NCBI RefSeq assembly: GCF_037392515.1
Contig: NC_090295.1
Location: 24,034,501-24,098,500 of the forward strand
From: Haliotis asinina
Taxonomy: Eukaryota; Mollusca; Gastropoda; Lepetellida; Haliotidae
Length of the DNA stretch: 64,000 nt
Reading direction: 5' to 3'
The notes below the pieces were generated by a model that saw nothing but the letters and a program-made list of their open reading frames with translations, searched no databases and was not told the DNA's origin. A program made the position numbers and the translations under genes. Shown here one piece after another: positions 40,969 through 64,000 of the stretch. Each line of letters starts with the position of its first letter. The stretch's first letter is position 1.

Positions 40969-41619
40969 TTATCAACCACTCACTCTCAAATTATCCAAAT
41001 ATATGACACACTGTGCCTTTTCAAATGATATCATGTAAATATATTAATTATATTCACATATACAGGTATGTTCTATGTTTCACCTTTTGTGTTTTTGAGA
41101 AAAGAATGAAAATTCTGTTTGTTCTTCTACCAGTCACTACAGAGTATAGTAACAACACATTTCCATATTTCTTAATTTACTTGTAATTAGAGTGAAAAGT
41201 AGTCGAGAACTGAGTTGCTTGAGAAGCTGAGAATGTTCTCAAGCACTTTTAATATAAAAAGTCTTAATATAAAAATCATAATTCATTACATGAATTAAAA
41301 CAAAGTATAGTTTCCATATCTGGGCACATGTTATTATTATCAGCTTAATTAAGCCTTATGCAAACAACCCTAAAGTGTGTTGTTTTAAGCGGTCTGTCTT
41401 TTGTGAGGTCTGCTTTATAGGAAGATAACGCGGTTGCAAGGGTGCGCATCCTCCCTATTGAACTGAAAGTTTGTTTTATGACCACTGAAACTCGGGTGGT
41501 GTAGGGTGTAGCTTGTAGGGTGTGTGTGACTATGAGGATGTCATCTTGATCGGGGCAGATCTCCTAAAATATACATGCTAGCTTCATCAAACTTAGAAAA
41601 TTAAGAAAAATAAAATCGA

Positions 41620-42415
41620 AGCAACGAGAAAATATTCGAAATTTCAAGTTTTTGACTGAAACTTGAAGCAACGAGTAAATATTCGAAATTTCAAGTTTTT
41701 GAAAGAAACTTGAAGCAACGAGAAAGATACTGGAAATTTCAAGTTTTTGACTGAAACTTGAAGCAACGAGTAAATATTCGAAATTTCAAGTTTTTGAAAG
41801 AAACTTGAAGCAACGAGAAAATATTCGAAATCTCAAGTTTTTGAAAGAAACTTGAAGCAACGAGAAAGATACTCGAAATTTCAAGTTTTTGAAAGAAACT
41901 TGAAGCAACGAGTAAATATTCGAAATTTCAAGTTTTTGAAAGAAACTTGAAGCAACGAGAAAATATTCGAAATTTCAAGTTTTTGAAAGAAACTTGAAGC
42001 AACGAGAAAATACTCGAAATTTCAAGTTTTTGAAAGAAACTTGAAGCAACGAGTAAATATTCGAAATTTCAAGTTTTTGACTGAAACTTGAAGCAACGAG
42101 AAAATACTCGAAATTTCAAGTTTTTGAGAGAAACTTGAAGCAACGAGTAAATATTCGAAATTTCAAGTTTTTGAAAGAAACTTGAAGCAACGAGAAAATA
42201 CTCGAAATTTCAAGTTTTTGAGAGAAACTTGAAGCAACGAGTAAATATTCGAAATTTCAAGTTTTTGAAAGAAACTTGAAGCAACGAGTAAATATTCGAA
42301 ATTTCAAGTTTTTGAAAGAAACTTGAAGCAACGAGAAAATACTCGAAATTTCAAGTTTTTGAAAGAAACTTGAAGCAACGAGTAAATATTCGAAATTTCA
42401 AGTTTTTGACTGAAA
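41620..42415 (-). repeat. Right foldback arm: 47-bp tandem array in inverse orientation
   Basis: Reverse complement of the left array, about 16-17 units, again with CAGTC/CTTTC variants but in a different order. The arms therefore changed by unit exchange after formation. Confidence 0.95.
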
Positions 42416-42616
42416 ATTCTCGAAGTAACGAAAAATTTATCGAAGCAACGAAAACATATTTGAAATAACGAGAAAATACTCGAAGTTACGAGAAAATTAT
42501 TGAAATAACGAAAAAATACTCGAAGCAACGAGTAAATAATTGAAGTAACGAGAACTGTCTTTGAAAAAAAATATTTTGTGCTACAAAAGTGGCAGCATTA
42601 GGCTTTCGTAAAAGCG

Positions 42617-43019: not shown

Positions 43020-43536
43020 CCTACTGCAGATATCCACTTCCTGCAATAATTACCACCAGTGTTGTTGTGAGCATCACAACACCACTTGTCTGTTTTCAGC
43101 TCCACATGAAATTTGGTTCAGGCTGTCTTTGTCCACTATGTACTATGCGATTACATTTGGTGTAAAGAACCGGTCAGGCGACTTATATCTGAACCTTATG
43201 GTAATGGCGCTACTGGAGGTTCCGATGTCCTTCGTAGAACTCTTCGTGGTATCAGTGTTAAGATTTATGCTCAACCAATGTTGATGTTGTAACACAGGTC
43301 CTCCGAAATGACATTTCACTGTTTAGCATTACACAACCAGTAACCTTTATTAACTGGTGAAAATGGACATATATTCCAAAATTTTGTGGTAGTGAAAAAG
43401 GCGTCGTAAGTTGGGTTTCATTTGTCCCATGGTCTTGTGTATATTTAAAACAAATTAATGCCTCTGTTTTATGGTGTGTTGTGCCTGTCAAAATGGAACT
43501 CATATTACAATGTCTGTAAACAGATAACTTCGCCAA

Positions 43537-44050
43537 CTAATAACACGAAATCAAGTGCTTTATCACATGCACGTGCTTACTGCATGAACTCAGGTCTAAT
43601 AACATGAGATCTAGTGCCTTATCACATGTACATGCTTACTGCATGAACTCAGATCTAATAACATGAGATCAAGTGCCTTATCACACGTACATGCTTACTG
43701 CATGAACTCAGGTCTAATAACATGAGATCAAGTGCCTTATCACACGTACATGCTTACTGCATGAACTCAGATCTAATAACATGAGATCAAGTGCCTTATC
43801 ACATGTACATGCTTACTGCATGAACTCAGATCTAATAACATGAGATCAAGTGCCTTATCACATGTACATGCTTACTGCATGAACTCAGATCTAATAACAT
43901 GAGATCAAGTGCCTTATCACATGTACATGCTTACTGCATGAACTCAGATCTAATAACATGAGATCAAGTGCCTTATCACATGTACATGCTTACTGCATGA
44001 ACTCAGATCTAATAACATGAGATCAAGTGCCTTATCACATACACATGCAT
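43537..44050 (+). repeat. 59-bp satellite array, ~8.5 copies
   Basis: The unit begins ATCTAATAACATGAGATCAA and ends TTACTGCATGAACTCAG, 59 bp. Inner units are almost identical and the edge units are diverged. It lies in an intron of SLC22-like copy 1; copy 2 has one diverged counterpart near 55165-55205. Confidence 0.97.
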
Positions 44051-45431
44051 ACTGGTCTTTATACACGTTCAGTTGGCGTTGGGCGTGCTCCACACTGATT
44101 TTGTTCCAAGCTGTTGCCTGTGTTGGTGTTGACATAGTAACAAAGTTTGGTGAATATGCGTGCCTGTCCTGATTCTGTTTGGTGGCAGTTGGCAAATCTG
44201 GTGTGAAACACGTGGTAATCAGATGTGGGACATTTCCCCCCAGCAGAACATTGATTGTAAACGTGGACAACAAAAGGAAATCACTACGTTAATGACAATG
44301 GCGTTGTCTCAGGAAAGTGTAAATGACCGCTTCAACCAGGAATAAAGAATATTAGTTTGGGCATCTTTATAATTTCATTCACCATTACCTGTAAAAGCGC
44401 ACACTGTTCTTTTTTACAGCTCTTGCGAACATCGACGTGCCGTTAGAAAATAGATTTGCAGTCTCCGCCAAATTATCAACCATTAGTGCATGGATGTTGA
44501 TTGGAGCGTTGACAATGGAACAGTTCCAGTCACAGTCGGGTGATTCTGCTAGCTGCAGTTAGTGTAGATTGAAGTGTTGAAGTGAATAGCAGTAAATGAC
44601 AAACTGATGATTGTATTCAAACCACCCGCGGATTTTGTCAAAAATACAAGGAATATAACTCTACACAGCAATATTGGCTCATTAATCAGCTTGGCCTCTT
44701 GCGCGACAAAATTAAATGCACATAGCATAGGGCACATTCCTAATAAAATATTTAACCAATGTTTCCCGTGTGCCCTTCGTTATGAAATAATCGCGACAGT
44801 CTGCTGGATTTCCTAAGGTTATTTGTGCTGTGTTTGTACACAGCAGCTTGTATTATTGACGCTATTTCTTTCATAAACTGGGTATTTAAAATGTTTTTAT
44901 GATAAATAATTTCGTCATATGTTTGACTTTCAGTTACAAAATCAAACGTTACCTATATTATATCTACATAAAACTAGACAATGTACTGACACTACATGCC
45001 AAGAAAGACTATATAGTTTGAAAATAATAAACCCAGTACGATATAATACATAACTGCCACAAATGTATATCTTTGATATCTAATCTTTTGAAAACAACAT
45101 ATGTAAATGTTCTGTATAGATTTACAACAAATTCATGTCTTCACTGAACTTGGTTACTTTTATACAAAATTACAAATTCATTGATTTCTATATACAATTT
45201 CTTTCAAATATGAGTGATGATGAAATAGACAAAATAACATTCTTTTCATTTCCAATGACATACAAAACAAACTCGTTTTGCGTTTGACCTTTTGTATGAT
45301 TTTGGACAAAGTTGTACTGTATTTTAAAATAAAGTGATAGTAGATAGAAGTAATGACGCTATTTTTGGCAGTGGAGTTTACCTTTGAAGACTGGTATTTC
45401 TCACATTGTAAATGATTTATTTTCCCACGAC

Positions 45432-45585
45432 CTGGGCCCCGTTTCACAAAGCTCTTGTAAGCCAAAGATCTCCTAACCTTTCTCATAGCATTGGTACTTC
45501 ATATGTTACAGTGGAGGAGGTTGGGAGGCTACAAGGAAATTTACGAGATCTTAAACTTACGGGACCTTCGTGAAACGGGCCCCAG
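45432..45585. mobile_element. 154-bp MITE
   Basis: Terminal inverted repeats CTGGGCCCCGTTTCACAAAG (left) and, reversed, CTGGGGCCCGTTTCACGAAG (right) extend to about 30 bp. There is no ORF. This GGGCCCGTTTCAC-type end is common in mollusc genomes. The element ends 11 bp before the AG acceptor of the exon-like block at 45597. Confidence 0.8.
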
Positions 45586-46048
45586 ATATGTTCCAGGTAC
45601 TTGTGATATGCTGCTGGTGCCTGCGAGACATGGAGGGATCGTAGCAGCTAAGATATTCTCTTTGGTAAAGGAATTTATGTCTTTACAAGTAGCCAGGCTA
45701 CAAACGGCAATAGTTGTATCCTCGACACGTAAGGGCACTGCATTTTAAAACAAGTATACTTGTTGTCTCCTGCCCGAAGTGGTTTGACCATAACTATTAA
45801 CAGTGTCCAGCCTAAGACCTCTTTAGCAAATTCCCATCCCTCTGTCTAGGATCCAAGGACGATCTGAGGCCACCTTTACTCGCCATCGGAATTTTGATGT
45901 CTTCTATAGCATTGTCAGGCTTCGGTCTTGAGGAGACGAGCTAAAAGGCATTAGGTTACGCGACGAAGAACTGAGTATACAACAGATGGCTTGAATGAAG
46001 AGATTGAAGAAAGTCTTCCTCTGAACGATATCGATATTACTCTCAATA

Positions 46049-48600
46049 AATGACACTGATGGAGTGAGACATTCCAGAAATGAAAGAATAGTGTACATCT
46101 GCAAAACTGTGGGGAGATGCTGACGAAGCAGGAAGTATTCGCCGGTGAAAGGTGAAGATAGTTGTGGGACTGGTTGATAAGTGAGCAGGAGAAGAATGAA
46201 GGAGAGGAACAAAGGAGCAGTAACACAAGTCAGAACATGACATGGTCCTGGGTGTGTGCAGGACAACCGACGTTGTTGGTGGTGATAATTGCATAATGAT
46301 GTCATTTGACGGTCATGAACGATCAATGGTTAAATATTAAACACTTGATTGTAATCATTGTCAACAACGGGCGTTTAAATTACGTAAATGACTTGTGCAT
46401 ATGTGTGCATACTAAAAATAACAGATTTTTTGTTGTTGATATCAGTGGTGCATGTAGGTATCCACGAGTCACTCCACATTCACTGAAAACACAAAATAAC
46501 AAACATTCAATTCAAGTCAGAACATGAGGACAGGGTCATGGAACTTTACTACCAAGCACATTGAAATGCATTTTTATGGCAACATAAGGTTTCGTCACTT
46601 TGCTATATTTGTGCATTGATAAGTGAGTAAAGCAAAATCAGCAACAATGCAACTACTCGCTTCCAGAAGTCAAACACATATGTCTGTGGAAAAGATCATA
46701 GAATAAAAGTGCCGACAAAGATCTAAAAGCTCTAATATGAATCACAGAGTTACTTTCTACGCAATACTCATAAATCGAACTGGAGAAAAAGGAATGGGAA
46801 GTTGTGAAATGGTTTGAACACTAAAGAACAATGAAGTAACTGTACATGTCCACTTATCACTGAGAGGTGGTTGCCTGCCACAAGGCTATGAAAAAAGGAT
46901 CGTCTGTCAAAGCGCAATTGATATCAATTTCTAGCATATCGCCGAACAGCAGGTTTCAAACGTACTCGATACTGAAATGTCAAGAGAAACTTTATAGGCA
47001 GACTATACTTTTGATTTCACCACTGGAAAACCAGCGAAAGAAGATGTCCATATGAACGAATTCAAACACCGTTTGGAAATGTCAGCTGTATGAAGATGGT
47101 CAATTTACGATTCCTAATTGCCTGAAAGCATGACAAACAGTCTATAAAGGAGGAGTCGAGGAAGGGCAACCATTTGACTGTAATGACAAAGTATGACAAG
47201 GCGCAACATCTGATTCTGAAACTGTATCCTTTCTTCTATTAAACGGTGGAAATGATGGTATGATTATGGCTAGTTGATGTGACAGGTAGTGTGTGCTAGG
47301 CGTTTTCAAGTTGGCAAAAATCGAAATTGACATCAGGTTGCATTGACCATGTCAGTTTGAATCCAGCGGCCACAGAAATAGAAGTGGTAAACTCTCGAAT
47401 GTGTGCCCGTTTTGGGGTTCTTATGTACCTGTAATATATCGGGATAGTATTTTATATGTTAATATGAGGAATACATGACAATCTCTTGTCATGGGTTCTT
47501 CTCACAATTTGGCCTCTTTGACCATTTTCATTGACAGCTGTGGCAACTAAAAGAATCACTTCAGTTGTCATTATAGTTCAGTAATACAGAAACGTTTGTT
47601 CTTGACGGAAACAGTGTCTCATAATTGTTACTCTGTTAGTGCACTTCAGGGTTCAAATCTTTCTCTCACTTCCCCTTAACTTTACATACAAAGAATACTA
47701 TTTGTCTAAATTTATCATCGACCTGACTGAATGAATTGAACAAAACTCAGTCGGGTAATTTGAAAACCCACGTGTTCCTAAGGGAGGTAAGAGAGAACAT
47801 AATCAAATTACACTATCTCATCTCAATCATCGTGATATATTTGTCTCTTTCGGGTGGAAAGCCTGATTCAGATTCACATGCACCAAACATTTTCAGGTAT
47901 GCATAGCTACACATTAATTTCACTATTAATACCATTTGAAATGATAGAAACATTGAATTAGCCCCACTGAGTTCGGAAATTCAGAACCAGTTGGTCTCTG
48001 TACTGGCTTTTAGTATGGGCAACTGTATCGCACAATTTGTCGGGCGGATAGTTTGGAGTGTCGGTTCCCTTGTTCCCGGTTCCTTTCATTGAACACAAGC
48101 TCTGCTGATCACAGCTGGTGACTTCATAATGTCTGTTGGAGCAATTCAGTTGACTACTTGGTAGTGATCATCTGGGCGAGGTCTGTCAATAGTTCTGCAC
48201 TGACTTCCTATTGTTGATTCCCGAGAGCCATGATGCGCTAACTATTTTCAATTCACCAACTCTCTGTTTGACTGACATCTTCATGCGGAACACAGAAATC
48301 GTGAAATGAAGGACAGTTGGTCTTTTATCAACATGTTTACGTGATCTCAAAGTTTTCCACGAAAAATCCAATTCTTAAGCATCTAATTCGTCAGCCGTCG
48401 TCTGTACGTGCGTGTATTGCATAGCTGATAGTGATTACATGTATTAAAAGCCTTTAAAACGCAATTTGACGTTCTTACTTTCTTTACTCACACAAATGTC
48501 GACATATATAGATGTAACTGGCAGATATGTTTTAAATAAACATCTGTGCATAACTTAATCGGAAATTGTCCAATCAACAACAACGTCAGTGACGACATCA
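46049..48600. other. 3' flank of SLC22-like copy 1
   Basis: Non-coding by eye. Large parts match 56.7-59.2 kb. Minus-strand ORFs near 45904-46326 are antisense of the transporter tail. Confidence 0.5.
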
Positions 48601-53591: not shown

Positions 53592-56500
53592 TATATGTTA
53601 TATTATGGCCGGAAGAATGTTGTCTATGGCGGACTGCTCTTGAGCGCCATCAGCAACCTGATATCTTCATTCTCTCTGACATGGATCATGTTTGCTGTAA
53701 TTCGAATGATCATTGGACTGGCGGTTGGAATGACAATGTCCTGTAGCTTCTTGTACCGACTGGAATATGTGGGAAAGAAATGGCGAGGGGCGTGTACTAC
53801 GATTCCATCCTGGCCCCTCGGAGTGGTGCTGTTTGCCATTTTATGTTGGTCCATCCGGAACTGGAAATAGCTGTATCTAACTATTGTTGCAGTCAACATT
53901 CCTTTGCTGCTGACTTAGTTGTAAGTGAATTATGTACACAAATATATTTCAAAATACCAAGAATGTTTACACACCTTTCATTAAAATGTCCGTGGAAAAT
54001 ATTAACTGAAAGTGCAAAACAACTCCTGATTTAGAAACCTAATTTCTTCGATCGAGTTAGTGCACCAAGCATGAAAAACCCTAACACTATTTCATCTGTA
54101 CCATTCTCCTTGTCACGTGGACATTTGTATTTATTATAAACAAAATACCAAATAGTGTAACAATTGGAAATCACGTTTACCATTTACTGCTAATGTGATG
54201 CCAGAATCGCTCCGCTGGCTCACTGTGAAGGTACATCTTGAGGAGACGAGGCGCATCGTCATCAGGATTGCCAAGTTCAACAAGAAGGCTGTTCCAGACA
54301 TGTCCATATTGGAACTGATCGCTGAAGAGGAGAGGGTGGAGAGGAACAAAGCTAAATCCTACTCCTACATAGATCTGGTTAGACCCAGGACACTGAGGTC
54401 AAGAACTCTTATAACATGCTTTATTTGGTAAATACTTTACGCGTTTTGAGTTACTCAAACATATATCTGCGCTGTAGAAGAACTTAAACCGTGAACCATA
54501 GTGCAAGATCCATCTCCGAGCTCAACATCAGCATCAGCAACAGCAGTAGCTGCTGCATTTTATCATCAGCAGCATTACTACTAACAAAGTTCAGCATCTC
54601 TTTTGGCAATAATTACTACCAGTGTTGCCATAATCATCACCTAGCTACTTATCTGCTTTCAGCTCCACATGAAGTTTGTTTCAGGGTATCTATATCAATT
54701 GTGTACTATGACAAAACATTTGTTGTGAAGAATCTGTCAGACGACTTCTATGTCAACCTGATGATCATGAGAGTACTAGAGGTCCCGATTTCCATTGTGG
54801 AACTTTTCATGGTCCCAGTGCAAGGACTTAGGCTACTTTAATCGTCATTCAGCATACAAGTGAACGCACTGTGTATGTGTGTTTGCTGGTGCTACTCTCG
54901 ACTAATGCTGATATATCAAAGGTCCCCCGAAATGCTATTTTGCAACATTTTACAACCAATACCTAACAGGTTCAAGAATTACTGATAATCCATACCTATT
55001 CCAATGTTACGTTCTTGTATTATTCTGTACAGTTTTTGTGTTTATGGAGAAGTCGTTGTACTTTGGGCTTCATGATTTATGTTAATTTGTGTATATATAT
55101 TTATAACAAATGGATATTCACGTTTTATGGATAGCTGTGCCTGTCAAAATGGTTTTCTCATTACAAATTCCTCGTGCCTTCCCACATGCACATATTTACT
55201 GTTAAAATTCGGGTCTTATGTTCACACAGGTTCGGTCGATGTTAGGCGTGCGCCATACTGCTCCTGTTCTCAGCTGTTTCCTGGTTTGGTGTTGCCATAG
55301 TAACAAAGCTAGGTGAGTATGCTTGTCTGTCTCGACTATGCTTGTTACAATTGGCAAATCTGCTGTGAAACTAGATCACGAAAGTATAAATGGACGTGTT
55401 TCAAACAGACATGAAGAATATTTGTTTCGTCATCTCTATAATATCATTCACCACTTCTAAAAATACACGCATTGTACGTACCTTTTCACAGCTCCTGCAA
55501 ACATCAAAGTGCCCTTAGAAAATGGATTTGCAATCTCTACCAAATTATCCACCATCAGTGCATGGACTTTGATTGAGACATTGACTAGTGAACAGTTCCC
55601 AACCGTGGTCAGGTGATTCGAAAAGTCATACTGAGTGTAGACTTGAGTGCTTAAGTGACTAGCTGTTAATAACAAACCGATAATAGATAGAAATTCATGT
55701 CTTAATCGAACTTAGGCACAAAAACTGCCAATTCACTCATTTCTGTTTACAAACCGTTGCAGAAATGAGTGATGTTGAAATATACCGAATCACATTCATT
55801 TCAATGACATAAGGAACAAACCCTTTGTACTGTTTGCAATGGAGGACTAGTAGTTTCATGTTGTTAATCATTTGAATAATTAGCGACTTCCTCTCCTTTT
55901 CCAGGAACTTGGCATATGCTGCTCAAAACAGATCTGGGTGGATCGCAGCAGCTCAGATATTCTCTTTGGTAAAACCTATAAGTCTTTATGATATTCTCTT
56001 TGGTAAAACCTATAAGTCTTTATGTATAAGCACTCTACAAGCAAGAAACGTTTTATCCACTACAATGTTTTATATACCTCTTTGTTAAGCTGAGCTGTAA
56101 TTTGAGTGGATGATGATAAAATAAAAGAAGAGATTAGAGCTTGATTTAAAAATAGTATGACTACAAAATGTTAATATACTACATTCTATATCATTAGAAT
56201 GCCGTAAGAAATATAAAGTCTGCAAACTCTTCAACAAATTCTTGTTCCTCTGCCAGGGTTCCAAGAACGATCTGATGCCACCTTTCGATGGCATGGGAAT
56301 CTTGATGTCTCTTACGGAATTAATTATCATGCTTCGGTCTTGAAGAGACGAACAAACAGGCATTAGAGGACACAATGGAAAATATACAAGAGGGGGCATG
56401 AATGTAGAGGTTGAAGAAAGTCTTCCTCTGAACGACGATGTTACACTGGCAATGACTGACAGTGATAGGGTGCAGGGAGAAAACCCAGAAAAAGACGAAT

Positions 56501-56679
56501 GCTGTACCTATGGAAACTCAGGTGGTGATACTGAAGAAGGAGGATGTATTCGCCAGTCAAAAGTGAAGATAATTATGGAACTGGCTGATAGCAGTGAGTC
56601 AGAGAAGAATGGAGAGGAACAAGGGAGTAGTAACACATTCTCCAAGTCGGTTCATGACATATATGTCTATCGTGTATAA
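53592..56679 (+). pseudogene. SLC22-like organic ion transporter, decayed copy 2
   Basis: Exon-like blocks: 53592-53920 (YYGRKNVVYGG after TM2, through TM3-5 to IRNWK), about 54190-54427 (MPESLRWL and the cytoplasmic loop with AKFNKKAVPD), 54663 to about 54830 (SDDFYVNLMIMRVLEVP), 55230-55312 (AILLLFSAVSWFGVA), 55492-55612 (ends EQFPTVVR, a family signature), 55905-55968 (NLAYAAQNRSG) and 56257-56679 (last helix and acidic tail). Breaks: TAG at 53868-53870 and 53915-53917 region, TAG at 55243-55245, and a double frame change around 56335-56400 (EETNKQALEDTM is in a different frame from the flanking parts). The second block lacks a clear acceptor. SLC22 proteins are about 550-residue, 12-helix carriers. 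Assembly error could explain one break but not all. Confidence 0.78.
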
Positions 56680-57741
56680 AGTACAACGGCCATGGTGACA
56701 AACAAATACTTAATGATGTCATTTGACGATAGAAAACGATCAATGGTCTAATAGTAAACACTTGATTGTAATCATTGGCGTATTTAATCAGTATATTACC
56801 ATTTGTGGTGATCAAATTACGTAAATGACCTGCTGATATGCATCGACCATCGACTGTTTCTTTCAGAAGTTTCGTCTTTCTCAACTATATTAATCTTCAC
56901 ACCCAGTGGTAGGTATCCATGAGGCAGTCCACATTGACTGAAAACACTAAATCACAAACATTCACTTTAAGTCAGAAATGGACAGTAGGGTCCTGGAAGT
57001 TTACTATCAAACACCAGGGAATGCAATTTTATTTCAACATGAGGTTTCGTCACTTTGTTCACAAGTAATGCCGAAACAGAAGCTCTTCACGTCTTGAAAG
57101 CAAATACAGTTTCCTGTGGAAGGGAAGTGCTGATAAATATCACTGAAACAATAAACGTTTATTTTTATCACAGAGTTAATTTCTTTCCGATATACCAAAC
57201 AAAGAGAATCTTCACTGAATGAAATGCTTTGAACAATAAGGAACAGTGAGAACTGAATTACAGATACCAGGACGGTAAACAAACTGGAGACCAATATCCT
57301 TACTAAATGTGTCGTACAAGATCGGTACGGCAACAGTAGCAATTAGTAGAGTTTTAACTTCAATTATTAACGAAGATAAACAAGATCCTTGGTAATAGAT
57401 ATAATGGAGATTGTAAACCTAAAGTCACTGTGTTCTGTAATCTGAATGGTTGAAAATCATAATCAAATGGAATTCGATTCCCGTAAACAGCAAGACTATT
57501 CGCTGCGTATTGACACATAGAAACATCGTAAACAATTGTTTTGTTGTGTCACCACGATGGTGATGCCATCCAAATCATAGTGTGATGTAAAGTTAGAATG
57601 ACTTCACGGGAGGACCTCCAGATGCTTCCATGGGACCCAGCTGAAACGGCCAGCTGATGACACTTCACTGCGGTACTTGTACTCGATGTAAACGAGTGCA
57701 GACACTAAAACCCTATGGTTTACTTTTGTGTTTAGAATGTC

Positions 57742-57867
57742 GATACACATCATGTATTGGCCAATTTTCGGGTGTTATTGAGTATACGACGCCGGCGGTT
57801 CTAAATGTATTGCCGTGCTTCAAATACTCAATAACACCCGGAAATGGGCCAGCACATGATGTTTATC
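57742..57867. repeat. Inverted repeat with 44-bp arms and 38-bp loop
   Basis: Arms 57742-57785 and 57824-57867 pair with about five mismatches (GGGTGTTATTGAGTAT against ATACTCAATAACACCC is perfect). The loop is GC-richer (CGCCGGCGG). It could be a MITE or a local hairpin. Confidence 0.9.
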
Positions 57868-58580
57868 TTCTTAATACACAAGACATACTACATAATGGAT
57901 TACATAAAACCTATGGACATACTTGGACTGTTACTACTCTTCGATTTCGAAAAAAGCCATAGATTCCGCATATGGGAAATTCATTGAAGTCGGTTCACTT
58001 TTTGGGAATATGTAAGAAAGAGGATCAAGACATTTTTGCCATGTAAATTCATCAGTATTAGAGAATACATTTGGTTCTGACTTAGTATATCTATCTCCAG
58101 TGCAGTGAATGTTTACCTGCAATGATTTGAAACAATTTAGGGGTAATGGGCATAACAGTTGGAAATACAGAATATCTAGTTTCCCACTTTGCAGCTGACA
58201 GTCCCTTGTCTTGTATGGCACTGCAAAGCCTCTTCAAATATGTGACGATCATGCTCTTTTACTGGTTTGAGAATAAATGTAAGCCAAACATAAATTTCAA
58301 CAAGAGTTGTAAATAGTGTTAAGCTCTCGAATGTATGCCACGTTTTAACATTTAAAACGGCCTTTGCTATATCAGGATAGTAGCCTAACTTAACACACTC
58401 TTCTCACTGATTGGTCTTCTCGACCGTTGTGATTGAGGTATTGTAAAAAGTGACAACTAAATGAAGTCATCGAAGGTCTATTACAAGCAGACAATCGATC
58501 TTGACGAAAGTGGTCTTTTAAAATGATTGTTATCCTGACAGCCTCTCAAATGGCTTAGATAGATTTAGTTTTGTGATTTA

Positions 58581-58637
58581 AAATCATTTTAACGCCCTGT
58601 CATTTGTGATGTCAAATCATTTTAACGCCCTGTCATT
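58581..58637 (+). repeat. 24-bp sequence repeated 33 bp apart
   Basis: AAATCATTTTAACGCCCTGT plus CATT occurs at 58581 and 58614. Confidence 0.9.
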
Positions 58638-59605
58638 GTAATCTGTTGCTCAGTAAAAGAATGAGTAGTTCATGTTTCAGAAATTGGAGTGATTACTTGA
58701 AGCTTTTAATCCTCAAAACGAAGCAGAGGTCATTCGAAATAGGAAACTTTGATAGACGTAGGTAACTATGTTTATACTGAACAACTCCCAGTGAGCCCGA
58801 AGATTCAGAACTAGCCCGATTCCAGACTGTCTTCATTTTTGATTATTGCGTATGGAGCATGAGACAAACTTCTGGAATGTGGCTAAGGTTATACAGAGCC
58901 AATGTGGTTCTTACAAAGTGGGAAACGCATTTAAAAAAAACCCCAAACATTTTAGTAATATTAGCATTTGTATTTTGGAAAATAAATATATAGATCTGGA
59001 AAAGCAGGAGATGCCCTTAATTAAAAACACGCTTTAGTCCTGTCTATTGAAACAATTCAGTTGACTACACCCGATTGAATGTCCATCTGCATGAGGTCTG
59101 TCAATATTTAAGGACGGACGCTGCATTATTGAAAAGCTGGTGAGGATAGTGATTCACGTGAACCATTCCATGATGCTCTGACTGTTGTCAGTTCACACGA
59201 GATACTAAAATGAACGACAATTGGTCGCTAAATTATCCCTGATTGTGAAAAATCACATCCCATTCGGTCACCAGAACTGCACCACATTTTCACCATTGTG
59301 TGTGTCTATCTTTAGGTCAAATGCCAGTGTTGGGGCAAAGCTGGACTGCCAAGAAATGAAGAACATTGATACTTATTCGTTCATCACTTTTCACAGGCCC
59401 ATTAACTAAAAACAAGTTAAAAACATAGCAAAAGTTCAAAAGTAAATTCCCAAATCTGTTTAGAATAGTATCCCGTATTGATCTAGTGTCTATTGGTACT
59501 GATTTATCTTAGTAGATATAAATTTCATTCTACAGCACAGACAATAGAAACTATGTCAAAACAATGCTAAAACAATGCGGTAATTAGCTAAAACAATAGC
59601 CCATG

Positions 59606-59722
59606 ACCCACATCCCTCATCCCTCATCCCTCATTTCGTGCTCCAATTAGCAAAGACAATGAAACCAGTGACCGTAAATCCCCCATCCCTCATTTATCCC
59701 TCATCCCTCATCCCTCATTTGG
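59606..59722 (+). repeat. (CCCTCAT)n microsatellite in two blocks
   Basis: CCCTCATCCCTCATCCCTCA at about 59613-59633 and again at 59682-59720, separated by about 50 bp of other sequence. Confidence 0.85.
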
Positions 59723-60115
59723 CCCACATTTCATCCCAAAAATAGCTACACGTGACAGTCATTATCTAATCATATCAATTTCATTAAGCCTAGTGATACA
59801 TAATATCACCATGATGAAAAGAAGTTAATGATGTTTAAGGAGAAATTATCAATGGATGTTTCACGCTATAGTTGATGGTTATTTGTTACAAAACGATTGG
59901 AATGCTGTCTATTCAAATAAGTTGTTTATACAGAACAGTCACGACAGGGTGGCATGACCGGTTGATACCCAGTGCACGGTGTACTCTATATATAGAATCA
60001 ACAAACCAGGGGTAGCATGACTGGATGATGAAACTTAAACCTTTGAATAGTGCCATGTCATGATTAGTCATCCCTTTCACATTCTTTTTTTAAAAAACAC
60101 ACGTTCCACTACGTC

Positions 60116-60284: not shown

Positions 60285-60797
60285 ATGGGAACAAGAGTTA
60301 CAGATCGGTTCGTATTCTTTTATACAAAATCTTCCCCATTTAGCCAGCACTATCCTGTTAGGATTGAAGTTGATGGTAAAATCTTCAACTGTGCTGAGCA
60401 GTATTATATGTACATGAAGGCAATGACGTTTGGCGATGTGGTTACAGCTGAACACATTTTAAGAGCCTCTTCTGCTGTTATGCAGAAGAGATTAAGAAGA
60501 TGTGTGAAAAACTTTATTCAACACAAATGGGATGTTGTGAGTTACCATGTTGTGAAGAAAGTTACCCTGGCTAAGTTTACTCAGTCTTCCACTCTTCGAC
60601 ATGCATTAATGAACACCTCCACAAAAATATTAGCTGAAGCCAGTCCATATGATAGACGGTGGGGTGTTGGACTCTCTCTTCACGGTCCCAAGCTATTAAA
60701 TCCATCTAACTGGAAGGGACAAAACTGGTTGGGGAAAGCTTTGATGGAGGTCAGACAAGAGCTTATGGACAAAGTTGTTGAGAGTGAAAAGTGTTAA
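60285..60797 (+). CDS. NADAR-family protein (YbiA-like fold)
   Basis: An intact 170-codon frame with ATG at 60285 and TAA at 60795-60797. It spans the whole NADAR domain: SPFSQHYP (17-24), CAEQYYMYMKA (36-46, with Glu38), Trp82, EASPYDRRWGVG (118-129) and NWLGKALMEVR (147-157). NADAR proteins act on ADP-ribosyl or related N-glycosidic bonds; some bacterial and viral members remove ADP-ribose from guanine in DNA, and YbiA cleaves riboflavin intermediates. The biochemical role here is not shown. It is the first gene of the Polinton block. NADAR is not among the core Polinton genes, so it looks like a captured accessory. The next ORF continues in the same frame after the stop. Confidence 0.88.
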   Translation: MGTRVTDRFVFFYTKSSPFSQHYPVRIEVDGKIFNCAEQYYMYMKAMTFGDVVTAEHILRASSAVMQKRLRRCVKNFIQHKWDVVSYHVVKKVTLAKFTQSSTLRHALMNTSTKILAEASPYDRRWGVGLSLHGPKLLNPSNWKGQNWLGKALMEVRQELMDKVVESEKC

Positions 60798-60890
60798 ATT
60801 CTTGTTTACAGTCAGCTGAATGGTAAAGCAGCTTTCTATTCCTGGAAGCAAGTTCTACAATCATCACACACCTTGCACGAAACAGTTGTC

Positions 60891-61418
60891 ATGCAATCTA
60901 ACGAATGGTTTCAAGATCGCAGTGAATGTGTCAAGGATGCTAAGAGAAAGTTTCAAGATGATTCTAGGTCAACGAAAAGAATCATCATCAAGAAGACAAG
61001 AAAACTGTTCTTGTGTGTCGACGAAGTTGATAGTGGAAATCACATAAAGCATGCGGAAAATCTTCTCACTTTGTGTTACACTTTGGAACTGGCTAAGATT
61101 CTTAGACGGTTATCCTGTGATTTGTGTTTTGGATGTATGTTTGAACCTGAGGGAGAACTGGTGCACACGTGTAAGCACATGCTAGAACAGGATCACGTTG
61201 ATGGTCTTTTCATGACGGCCATGAGTGAAATAAATGATGAACACGTGATTGATAAATGGTTGGAAGTATTTAGTGATGACACATCTCTGAATTACGTGAA
61301 CATAGTTTCATACCGCTGCAAAGACTTTCGGGACACTCATTTTAAAACATCAGAGTGGCTTCATGATCTGAAGCAACGTGTGGTTAAGATGCTGTTGTTA
61401 GAAAATCGCTTTCAATAA
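60891..61418 (+). CDS. Uncharacterised Cys-rich Polinton ORF
   Basis: A 175-codon frame from the first in-frame ATG (60891) to TAA at 61416-61418. The frame is open without Met back to the NADAR stop at 60797, so the true start may lie in a spliced upstream exon (acceptor-like TTTACAG at 60805-60811). The protein has a basic N-terminal part (KRKFQDD, RIIIKKTRK) and a C76-x2-C79-x2-C82 group followed by H92-x-C94, a possible zinc site. The C-terminal half is helical and charged. I do not recognise the family, though unnamed ORFs with similar Cys clusters accompany Polinton integrases elsewhere. Confidence 0.6.
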   Translation: MQSNEWFQDRSECVKDAKRKFQDDSRSTKRIIIKKTRKLFLCVDEVDSGNHIKHAENLLTLCYTLELAKILRRLSCDLCFGCMFEPEGELVHTCKHMLEQDHVDGLFMTAMSEINDEHVIDKWLEVFSDDTSLNYVNIVSYRCKDFRDTHFKTSEWLHDLKQRVVKMLLLENRFQ

Positions 61419-61542
61419 TTGTGAATGTATACATGAATGAATTCTATTAATTAAAGCATATGTTCCTTCCTATTCGTACCTTCATGTTATATATTGCCTG
61501 TTACAACTGGTTTCATTCAGTACGTGTGTGAGTTCACAAAAG

Positions 61543-62667
61543 ATGAACAGGGTATTGTTAGAGAGGCACGAAAAAGCATTAGAAAAGTATTATTATGACC
61601 CTCACAATCCAGGAGCCTACTATGGTCCGTCCAAACTCCGACGGGTATTGAAGACAACACCTCAACCTGATGTTAAGCTCAGGAAGGTGAAATGGTTTGT
61701 CAACAACCAAGATCCTTACAGTTTACACAAACCAGTCAAGCATAGATTTAAAAGGATGAAAGTCAGAGTGAATTCCATGGACGAAATGTGGGATGTGGAC
61801 CTTGCTGATCTTTCACGCTACAGCAAAGAAAATGAGGGTATCCGGTATTTGCTTGTCGTGATTGACATACTGAGTAGGTTTACTTTTGTCCTTCCTTTGG
61901 AAAATAAAAGGCCAGAGTCCGTGTTGAAAGCCTTTAAAAAAATACTTCAAGAAAGAAAACCAAGAAAAGTACGCGTAGATGGTGGTAGTGAGTTTAAGGG
62001 AGTGTTCAAATCTTTTTTGGAAAAACAAAATATTACCATTACTATTGCACGCAACGAAAACATTAAAAGTAATTATGTGGAACGCTTCAACAGAACACTG
62101 AAGTCGTTGATCACACGTTACATGACACGTAAGAACACCAAACATTATCTCAGTGTTCTACCTGATTTGGTGTACAACTACAATAACACCCCACATTCGT
62201 CTTTACCCCTTCTATCACCTGCTCAAGTCAATAAAAGCAATGAATTGAAAGTTTGGCAACACTTGTATGTCAAACCCTTGTTGAAGTCAAAGGAAAAAAA
62301 AGGTCAAGTGATAAAGAAATACAGATATAAAGTTGGTGATCTTGTTCGCATCCCATACCTGAGGAAACCGTTCAGCAAAGAACTTGATCTGAAGTGGACG
62401 GAAGAACTTTTCAAAGTAACAGAACGTTTCAAGAAACAAGACATACCTCTGTACAGAATTAAAGATTTTCATGGTGAACTTATTAAAGGGAGTTTTTACA
62501 CTGCCGAACTGCAAAAGGTTAACAAAGGAGACGATATTGAGTGGCAAGTGGAAAAGATCTTAAAGAAGAAACGCATGAGAGGAAAAACGTATGTTTTGGT
62601 TCGTTGGTTAGGTTGGCCTAGTTCTTTTGATTCACATGTGGAAGAAAGTCAACTGAAAAACCTATGA
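61543..62667 (+). CDS. Polinton integrase with C-terminal chromodomain
   Basis: 374 residues from ATG 61543. The open frame extends 15 bases further to a GTG, which is not expected as a eukaryotic start. Retroviral-type integrase core: Asp86 in WDVDLADL, Asp146 in VRVDGGSEFKG and Glu180 in NYVERFNRTLK give a D-59-D-33-E triad. The N-terminal zinc region is not obvious. After a basic linker, residues about 333-374 form a chromodomain (EWQVEKIL, then YVLVRWLGWP). It cuts and joins element ends into host DNA, and the chromodomain probably guides it to methylated histone tails. The stop overlaps the next gene's ATG (ATGA at 62664-62667). Length is typical of Polinton integrases and the frame is intact. 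Confidence 0.93.
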   Translation: MNRVLLERHEKALEKYYYDPHNPGAYYGPSKLRRVLKTTPQPDVKLRKVKWFVNNQDPYSLHKPVKHRFKRMKVRVNSMDEMWDVDLADLSRYSKENEGIRYLLVVIDILSRFTFVLPLENKRPESVLKAFKKILQERKPRKVRVDGGSEFKGVFKSFLEKQNITITIARNENIKSNYVERFNRTLKSLITRYMTRKNTKHYLSVLPDLVYNYNNTPHSSLPLLSPAQVNKSNELKVWQHLYVKPLLKSKEKKGQVIKKYRYKVGDLVRIPYLRKPFSKELDLKWTEELFKVTERFKKQDIPLYRIKDFHGELIKGSFYTAELQKVNKGDDIEWQVEKILKKKRMRGKTYVLVRWLGWPSSFDSHVEESQLKNL

Positions 62668-63095
62668 CGGAGAAATATGTGTTTCTCAAGAGTTCTGACA
62701 CAAAAAATTCTTATTTCAAGGATAACAGCCCTTATCATTTTCGCATTAAGCTCAATCAAAGACTGCTGTTTGATGGATTTTGGGTCGTGTCTTTATCCGA
62801 GTTAAACTTTGGAAAGATAGACCTCACTCATGTGAACGATCCTTATGTAGATATACTGTGTAACCTGTGCGATAGTTCACTGGTGGGTAATACCCAGTTA
62901 CCACTGTTAAGACGCATTGATCTGAGGAATGGACCCAACTTTTCCTTTGCTAATGAATACAATATCCATGTGATGGTCAAAGAGTCACCTGACATTGAAA
63001 TCTGTATAAAAGCGAGCAGTGGAACACCACTGTCATTCTTGAAAGAGCAGACTTATGCAACACTTCACTTGAGACGTTATCCCTTTGCTGACTGA
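62664..63095 (+). CDS. Polinton structural-type protein (probable minor capsid / penton-like)
   Basis: 143 residues, ATG overlapping the integrase stop. Starts with a TEKYVFLKSSDTKNSYF segment, then FRIKLNQRLLFDGFWVVSLSELNF (short of a strand-rich unit) and a VGNTQLPLLRRIDL block, ending LHLRRYPFAD. This pattern recurs in unnamed proteins next to Polinton integrases in many invertebrates, often in longer form. The strand-rich composition suits a jelly-roll. Its assignment as minor capsid is inference from context. The stop lies 2 bp before the next ATG. Confidence 0.6.
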   Translation: MTEKYVFLKSSDTKNSYFKDNSPYHFRIKLNQRLLFDGFWVVSLSELNFGKIDLTHVNDPYVDILCNLCDSSLVGNTQLPLLRRIDLRNGPNFSFANEYNIHVMVKESPDIEICIKASSGTPLSFLKEQTYATLHLRRYPFAD

Positions 63096-63097
63096 AC

Positions 63098-63451
63098 ATG
63101 GATTCCCTCCCTCTGTATATCCCAGATTATAGCAAATGGCAGAAATACTTCAAGAAACAAATGACAAGTACTTCTCGTGTTGTGAATGGAAAAGCTCCCC
63201 CTAAAGTTATTCCATCTCACCGATCTGTTTCTCAACCGGAAGAACCTAAAATCGAACTGCAGATGACTTCAGAACAACAGAGTGTTGTGGAGAGAGCGGA
63301 TGCTTAAGAAAAGCGTCATAGGTCTTTAAAAAGAGCTGCAGGTGAACAGATTGCCACAACCAAGAAGATACGTCAGACAAGTAACATCGCCTCCAAGACA
63401 GCTAAAGTGCTCAAGTGTACTCCTGTGAAAGAAAACGACATCTTCAGTTGA
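63098..63451 (+). CDS. Basic Polinton ORF interrupted by one in-frame stop
   Basis: ATG at 63098 gives 69 residues to a TAA at 63305-63307. The same frame then stays open for 47 more codons to TGA at 63449-63451. The first part has PDYSKWQKYFKKQ, the second is very Lys/Arg-rich (KRHRSLKRAAGEQ, TTKKIRQTS), like a core or DNA-condensing protein. The original product was probably about 117 residues. The stop suggests a mutation or read error; I give no function. It ends 5 bp before the next ATG. Confidence 0.6.
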
Positions 63452-63456
63452 GCATC

Positions 63457-64000
63457 ATGTCTTTATTGAATAGCAAAACGTTTGAAGAGTTGGTACCGGA
63501 TTCGCTCAACCTATTTACCTTACCTCCATATCAGACCAGTATCCAGCAACACTATTTTGTAGATGTACGCCCACTCAGTCAAATTAATGACTCTTCTCCA
63601 CTGGAATTTCACATATCCAATTCGGGTAGTGATTACATTGATTTGAAGCGAACAAAACTGCATGTAAAACTCAAAGTCACCCATGCGGATGGATCGGTAT
63701 TGGATGCAGACGAACACGTGGCACCTGTCAATTTGCTTTTGCAGGCACTGTTTTCTCAAATTTCAGTGTATATGCAGAACCAGTTGGTGTCTTCGACCAA
63801 CAATCATTATGCTTACAAGAGCATGATGAAGACCTTGCTAAACTATGGAGCTGATGCGAAAAGCTCTCAAATGACATCGCAGCTGTTTTACAAAGATGAG
63901 GGTGAAGATAATGATGCCATTGAAACAACTGATTGTGTCACTGGAACCAATTACGGTTTGATTGCACGTGGTACCTACATCAAGAAGAGCAATGAACTGA
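63457..64000 (+). CDS. Polinton capsid-type protein, N-terminal part (runs off window)
   Basis: Open for 181 codons from ATG 63457 to the window edge, with no stop. Begins MSLLNSKTFEELVPDSLNLF, then PPYQTSIQQHYFVDVRPLS, YIDLKRTKLHVKLKVTH, HVAPVNLLLQALFSQISVYM, a NNHYAYKSMMKTLLNYG motif and SQLFYKDEGE. These ordered motifs are those of the transposon protein annotated in animals as F54H12.2-like, which belongs to the Polinton virion gene set and is probably a jelly-roll capsid protein. Which capsid component it is cannot be settled here. Confidence 0.75.
   Translation, partial: MSLLNSKTFEELVPDSLNLFTLPPYQTSIQQHYFVDVRPLSQINDSSPLEFHISNSGSDYIDLKRTKLHVKLKVTHADGSVLDADEHVAPVNLLLQALFSQISVYMQNQLVSSTNNHYAYKSMMKTLLNYGADAKSSQMTSQLFYKDEGEDNDAIETTDCVTGTNYGLIARGTYIKKSNEL

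Follow-up and report, generated by a model that had tools for sequence, protein, structure and literature searches.

Enzymes of the NADAR family hydrolyse guanine-linked ADP-ribose (PMC11543638, PMC11125620). All of the E. coli host and phage NADARs assayed acted on guanine-ADP-ribosylated DNA, and the roles of the family across eukaryotes, animals included, remain unclear (PMC11125620). Viral use of the family is described for nucleocytoplasmic large DNA viruses, phages and animal RNA viruses (PMC9503650). YbiA-family NADARs also occur in eukaryotic mobile elements, at the N-terminus of Pol in Ectocarpus Gypsy elements and in ORF1 of a Tx1 long interspersed nuclear element of a mollusc, the Pacific oyster Crassostrea gigas (PMC12477816). 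Here we describe a NADAR gene carried not by a retrotransposon but by a DNA element with viral genes, a Polinton (Maverick), in a 64,000-nucleotide stretch of the Haliotis asinina genome (contig NC_090295.1, positions 24,034,501 to 24,098,500, forward strand), hereafter the window. The retrotransposon cases mean that mobile elements of eukaryotes, molluscs included, were already known to carry a NADAR. NADARs in Polintons, at two positions and with two predicted modes of expression, appear to be new. No report of a NADAR in Polintons was found in the literature, in a search whose coverage left out most subscription papers. The word NADAR is absent from a paper on adintoviruses (PMC11071296), and a survey of virus NADARs has no word starting with maverick, polint or adinto (PMC9503650).

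The NADAR gene truly belongs to a Polinton family, as an accessory that is copied with the element inside its terminal inverted repeats (TIRs). The left TIR, which starts AGTAGATATAAATTTC, lies at 59511..60002 (+ strand) and its inverted arm at G000:C16:24110441-24110939. The left arm is 492 bp long and is 97.4% identical to the inverted right arm across 500 columns with 9 gaps. The sequence TATCTT directly outside both TIRs forms a perfect 6-bp target site duplication (TSD), with one copy at 59505..59510 and the other directly after the right TIR (L090:2540-2545, which is G000:C16:24110940-24110945). Since the inverted 492-bp repeats and TATCTT are found at both ends, the element is 16,929 bp long and spans window-equivalent positions 59511-76439, its right part lying beyond the window. 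The left edge is supported by copy comparison, in which homology begins at 59508-59511 in 15 of 16 other copies and at 59542 in the remaining one. The NADAR gene starts 774 bp inside this left end, past the TIR. By anatomy (TIRs, 6-bp TSD, integrase, family B DNA polymerase (PolB) and protease) the element is a Polinton. It shares with described Polintons and adintoviruses the TIRs, the 6-bp TSD, an integrase with an rve core and a chromodomain, an adenain-type protease, PolB and putative capsid-like genes.

The gene (60285..60797, + strand, TAA stop at 60795-60797) encodes a 170-aa protein of the YbiA-type ADP-ribosyl hydrolase family. The original prediction of a complete NADAR domain was borne out, as PF08719 matches at E 5e-44 (150.9 bits against a cut-off of 35.1) over profile positions 2-162 of 163. 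The predicted model has a bare YbiA-type fold, and proteins of Marseillevirus, Fadolivirus and phages are among its fold matches. Residues E38, K45 and E118 are invariant in 60 rows of one alignment (A3) and 6 rows of another (A5). Judging from spacing and alignment, they probably correspond to the published active-site residues E88 and K95 and the later E173. The protein thus resembles DarT1-NADAR and YbiA-type NADARs in its predicted fold, in the conserved glutamate and lysine, and in the later glutamate, which aligns with YbiA and 8BAU. Unlike the DarT1-NADAR system, the element yielded no match to an ADP-ribosyltransferase family among the open reading frames (ORFs) scanned, some of which have no assignment. 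With the domain starting at residue 12, an N-terminal extension of the DarT1 type would hardly fit. Among defence-related families, the protein matches the PADLOC candidate anti-phage family PDC-M42C (1.4e-37) and scores far under the cut-off for the NCBIfam anti-phage NADAR NF053876 (45.6 bits against 240).

Downstream lies the Polinton integrase (61543..62667, + strand), which has an rve core (Pfam 1.5e-8, above cut-off) and a C-terminal chromodomain (5.4e-5; 23.5 bits, just under the cut-off of 25.1). Its closest relatives are two proteins at 80% and 76%, with Haliotis proteins at 67-75%. The NADAR gene had been placed directly upstream of the integrase. It is indeed upstream and on the same strand, but the two are not immediate neighbours, as the main exon of a second gene, ORF2 (60812..61418), intervenes. 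The gene order in this lineage is therefore NADAR, ORF2, integrase.

Matches to the NADAR and to the integrase were tabulated across the H. asinina genome. These tables are lower bounds, and fragments of one copy are counted in them as separate rows (for example C2:10349245 and C2:10349944, or C4:2670867, 2670996 and 2671731). At least 122 NADAR matches, of which 114 exceed the curated cut-off, and at least 111 matches to the window integrase were recorded. For the comparison of neighbours, 106 of the 122 NADAR matches were used, the 16 from a cluster at C7:25.6 Mb being excluded, and the integrase identity cuts (79% here and 53% below) were chosen after inspecting the tables. For each of the 37 window-type integrase matches (at least 79% identity), a NADAR match stands upstream on the same strand at a distance of 0-2.5 kb, most commonly 779 bp (25 rows). 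The proximity of NADARs to Polinton integrases anticipated in the original prediction therefore holds in this genome, and the gene is not missing from the other copies of the family. Order and strand of NADAR, ORF2 and integrase are the same in 16 of 16 fetched loci of the 173-aa type, a non-random sample taken from the best-scoring NADAR matches. Together, the 16 fetched loci and the 37 integrase matches show that the linkage is no chance event. Some copies are damaged: L072 has a stop in ORF2, L073 a gap in ORF2, L077 an insertion and L080 a broken integrase. The 74 remaining integrase matches, at 64-75% identity, are more distant: a same-strand NADAR follows 10.5-12.9 kb downstream in 15 of them, the opposite strand bears one, differently arranged, in 2, and in 57 no NADAR match occurs within 25 kb. 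Because of these 57, the NADAR is an accessory that is dispensable for Polintons in general. It travels with the window's family and is optional among wider kin.

In the window lineage, NADAR and ORF2 share one reading frame with a single TAA between them. The ORF2 frame has no ATG before 60891, yet conservation extends upstream of this position in the H. rubra and H. asinina proteins, and the H. asinina relative has no methionine at the position of the 60891 ATG. The H. rubra relative P0241, a database gene model, opens with MGTRVTDR, which is residues 1-8 of the window NADAR, and then continues with ORF2 sequence. Deleting 60308-60811 from the window reproduces exactly this structure. The deleted segment is a predicted facultative intron of 504 nt (60308..60811, + strand; donor CG|GTTCGT, weak by eye, acceptor TTTACAG|TCA), and its removal is predicted to take out all of the NADAR except the first 8 residues. 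All 16 copies preserve the acceptor AG, and 15 of the 16 preserve the donor GT, L081 having CT instead. With the NADAR body forming the intron, retention is predicted to make the NADAR and removal the ORF2 protein. One start codon would thus give two products, NADAR from the unspliced transcript and ORF2 protein from the spliced one. The ORF2 product (+ strand) carries a C-x2-C...H-x-C pattern and is 87% identical to P0241 and 52% identical to H. asinina P0242. Pfam gives it no match above cut-off, PHROG, PADLOC and NCBIfam give none at E 0.1, and its fold prediction, from three sequences, reached a pLDDT of only 46.

A second lineage, the C10-type, has an integrase about 35% identical to that of the window. 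In every one of the 13 loci read, its NADAR lies directly upstream of the integrase, as it does for 30 of the 32 integrase rows that reach 53% identity. The latter count was made with 43 of the 113 rows of the C10-type integrase table against the 54 NADAR matches that the window-integrase count left unexplained. Nine C10-type NADAR matches fall within 0.7 Mb on one strand (C10:30057239-30762389), and an integrase that matches the query at 98-100% follows each of them. This group is a local cluster and not a set of dispersed insertions.

The C10-type NADAR appears to lack a start codon of its own. The junction upstream of the domain was read in 10 of the 13 loci (L104 is internally deleted, L088 has no upstream sequence and L101 was not counted). 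In 8 of these 10 (L091, L092, L096, L097, L098, L099, L100 and L102) an in-frame TGA CTA precedes the conserved F12-Y13 by a few codons, and no ATG intervenes. UGA CUA is a known readthrough signal. L094 has GGA CTA at the junction and hence a frame without a stop there. Upstream, before the NADAR, two loci have CARD-PC4-PC4 frames that are open to the TGA: L108:152-1084 (C12:14.59 Mb; CARD 9.7e-15, PC4 1.2e-11 in two stretches) and L114:315-1100 (C13:19.79 Mb; CARD 4.2e-5, PC4 5.1e-10). Splicing around the stop is unlikely because no AG lies between the TGA and the first residues of the NADAR. The NADAR codons are stop-free in 10 of 10 loci. The ratio of non-synonymous to synonymous substitution rates (dN/dS) is at most 0.35 in 41 of 44 pairs with dS above 0.05, the exceptions being 0.50, 0.57 and 0.69. 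The pairs are non-independent and come from 10 of the 13 loci (all but L097, L101 and L104). This pattern shows that the C10-type NADAR is under purifying selection. Since it is conserved yet without a start codon, readthrough is the best reading, and the NADAR would mostly be made as a readthrough extension of the CARD-PC4 protein.

The third lineage, the 321-aa type, is closer to the window (integrase 73%, PolB 74%) and carries its NADAR at the opposite end of the element, beyond the 5' end of PolB; some 140 residues precede the domain. PolB adjoins the NADAR in 13 of 14 fetched copies, L067 being the exception. The N-terminal part of the 321-aa protein was considered as a PC4 domain, which is unsupported (Pfam E 0.17, hhalign probability 0.1). 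One copy of this type, at C13:53.69-53.71 Mb, has inverted repeats outside both ends (83% over 696 columns, 85 gaps). The head of this single copy has no match to NADAR or ORF2. In L105 of the same lineage, two other ORFs of 184 and 183 aa (L105:2502-3592) occupy the head position held by NADAR and ORF2 in the window lineage. The element head may be a variable gene slot.

In a tree of 66 rows, 14 Polinton NADARs and the protein P0001 form one group (support 99/92, values that are rough because the bootstrap had not settled), with 11 of the 13 C10-type loci taken in. The group excludes two genes of a host-like NADAR cluster at C7:25595000-25655900 (L089 in part), two Helobdella genes and all 16 IMG/VR rows. 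In a first tree the window NADAR grouped with P0001 only, and the conclusion is based on the second set, which held host and other Polinton rows. The original prediction had asked whether Polinton copies cluster with viral rather than host genes. They do stand apart from the two host genes, but no IMG/VR row nests among them, and they form a clade of their own. They differ in this from the viral NADARs sampled, among which rows from nucleocytoplasmic large DNA viruses and RNA viruses were not entered by name. Read by eye, the two host genes have three exons each; the Polinton NADAR domains of all three lineages are uninterrupted frames in intact copies. There is thus one NADAR clade in three Polinton lineages, at two positions. 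P0001 is 57% identical to the window NADAR, comes from a 1,582-base contig and may be from another Polinton. Scans of IMG/VR with the window integrase and with the in-window part of the capsid protein found no relative, and at the IMG/VR NADAR loci (54 + 27, 64 distinct) no other Polinton query matched by tblastn at E 1e-3.

These findings suggest that abalone Polinton NADARs serve in self-protection from ADP-ribose-based host attack. On balance we favour, by a modest degree, an accessory NADAR that clears guanine-linked ADP-ribose from element DNA, together with both modes of expression. The steps from sequence to function are ones that we infer. The product would be a YbiA-type enzyme that hydrolyses ADP-ribose off guanine bases of element DNA, and it would counter a putative host ADP-ribosyltransferase or repair the lesions made by such an enzyme. 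Protein-primed replication is thought to expose single-stranded DNA, on which the NADAR might be most useful, and the link to PC4, a single-stranded DNA binder, in the C10-type lineage would point to the same substrate. The window element already carries a gene of the host-response kind, as it encodes a BIR (inhibitor of apoptosis) domain (L087:2079-2465, window-equivalent 66079-66465; Pfam 7.4e-24). A similar frame was seen by eye at this place in the 321-aa lineage (L085:1584-2015). For comparison, adintoviruses have a chromodomain integrase, and most mammal-associated ones carry anti-apoptotic homologues (PMC11071296). Guanine-N2 DNA ADP-ribosyltransferases are known in molluscs from six edible clams, and a cloned clam enzyme, CARP-1, causes apoptosis when electroporated into HeLa and TMK-1 cells (PMC11209040). 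NADAR and BIR proteins would suit a Polinton to both parts of such an attack, DNA ADP-ribosylation and apoptosis.

A DNA element that retains a NADAR, at either end in related lineages, offers a testable case for DNA ADP-ribosylation in animal host-parasite conflict, and the guanine-modifying enzymes of clams gain a possible opponent. The predicted facultative intron and the proposed stop-codon readthrough would be two unusual routes of NADAR expression, interesting in themselves. As a more tentative proposal, possible although we would not presume it, abalone Polintons would hold a dedicated ADP-ribose eraser for their own DNA, made by CARD-PC4-NADAR readthrough in one lineage and by the NADAR-intron splice switch in another. 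If true, a small dose of readthrough protein would join single-stranded DNA binding (PC4), guanine ADP-ribose removal (NADAR) and death-fold signalling (CARD). Molluscs would then defend themselves against viruses or transposons by CARP-1-type guanine ADP-ribosylation of DNA, in an animal equivalent of DarTG.

Several observations weigh against element-DNA clearance by either route. The guanine ADP-ribosyltransferase of the abalone host is putative, and most of the more distant integrases lack a nearby NADAR. Among 17 near-identical copies of the window family, polymorphic NADAR codons are 6 synonymous-only and 9 non-synonymous, which is no sign of strong constraint at this short time scale. 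For the readthrough route, only two of the eight upstream pieces inspected, L108 and L114, keep the CARD-PC4 frame open as far as the UGA; a single stop interrupts it in each of L106 and L109, between or within the CARD and PC4 domains, and L107, L110, L112 and L115 are decayed in that frame. In L095 the TGA is out of frame through a shift in a T-run and an in-frame ATG precedes the domain, and L115, the upstream piece of L101, shows the same shifted reading.

The Polinton NADAR could instead work on soluble immune signals derived from nicotinamide adenine dinucleotide (NAD) or ADP-ribose, and not on DNA. We regard this as unlikely, although soluble ADP-ribose derivatives have been proposed as targets of many phage and other viral NADARs (PMC9503650), a point that also counts against DNA as the substrate here, and although the window protein, a bare YbiA-type fold in the predicted model, is without the extension described for other NADARs (PMC11543638, PMC11125620). 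The activity on guanine-ADP-ribosylated DNA of every E. coli host and phage NADAR assayed argues the other way (PMC11125620), as does the C10-type lineage, where NADAR and a PC4 module share a reading frame.

Polintons replicate through DNA, and the module linked in the C10-type lineage, PC4, binds single-stranded DNA; both make it distinctly improbable that the enzyme serves RNA, whether by clearing ADP-ribose from transcripts or by aiding RNA processing. Such a role draws what support it has from NADARs in RNA viruses (PMC9503650) and from those of the Ectocarpus Gypsy elements and the oyster Tx1 ORF1, for which a role in RNA processing was suggested (PMC12477816). We give little credence to metabolic or incidental cargo, that is, a riboflavin-intermediate N-glycosidase or a passenger without a conflict role. 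The best NCBIfam model for the window NADAR is indeed riboflavin biosynthesis intermediates N-glycosidase (TIGR02464, 2.1e-46), and many Polinton integrases of the same genome stand without a nearby NADAR, but a single NADAR clade has been retained in three Polinton lineages at two positions and the C10-type dN/dS values are low. That the NADAR is host DNA at the insertion site has a negligible chance: the host does have its own NADAR cluster (C7:25.60-25.65 Mb), but the two genes read there, of three exons each, group apart from the Polinton clade, and the Polinton gene, which would have lain outside the TIRs had it been host DNA, lies within them and is carried by copies at many sites.

Downstream of the integrase of the window element, a probable penton-like minor capsid protein (62664..63095, + strand; the name is one we presume) shares 33% identity across 145 aa with its positional counterpart in the C10-type lineage (E 4.8e-21) and has no Pfam match. 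A small 69-aa ORF (63098..63307, + strand) is an open frame only, also without a Pfam match. The 5' part of what we take to be the major capsid protein (63457..64000, + strand) is 47% identical over 163 aa to a C10-type protein (E 1.4e-43) and continues beyond the window (L087:3-509). The capsid candidates have no Pfam model above cut-off and no PHROG match, and are conserved between the window and C10-type lineages. Beyond the window, L087 encodes an adenain-type cysteine protease (Peptidase_C5 3.5e-5; 24 bits against a cut-off of 21.3), a probable packaging ATPase (Pox_A32 0.035, below cut-off; 75% over 228 aa to the 321-aa lineage) and PolB (DNA_pol_B_2 1.1e-22 at L087:4944-8150, - strand). 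In the window copy, the N-terminal portion of PolB, which includes a C2H2 finger (L087:8132-8971, - strand), sits in a different frame from the remainder, unlike the 321-aa lineage copy L085, in which PolB is a single 1373-aa frame.

To the left of the element, the window holds an old host segmental duplication (43043-48217 and 54606-59132) whose pieces are about 69-88% alike and which ends left of the element. Local alignment of the duplicated segment, scoring 296.5 where shuffled sequence reached at most 269.5, gave no more than a bound on the element's left end, since superseded by the copy comparison; downstream it did not rise above the shuffles. Two tandem arrays, of 47- and 59-bp period, lie at 41586-42559 and 43419-44126.

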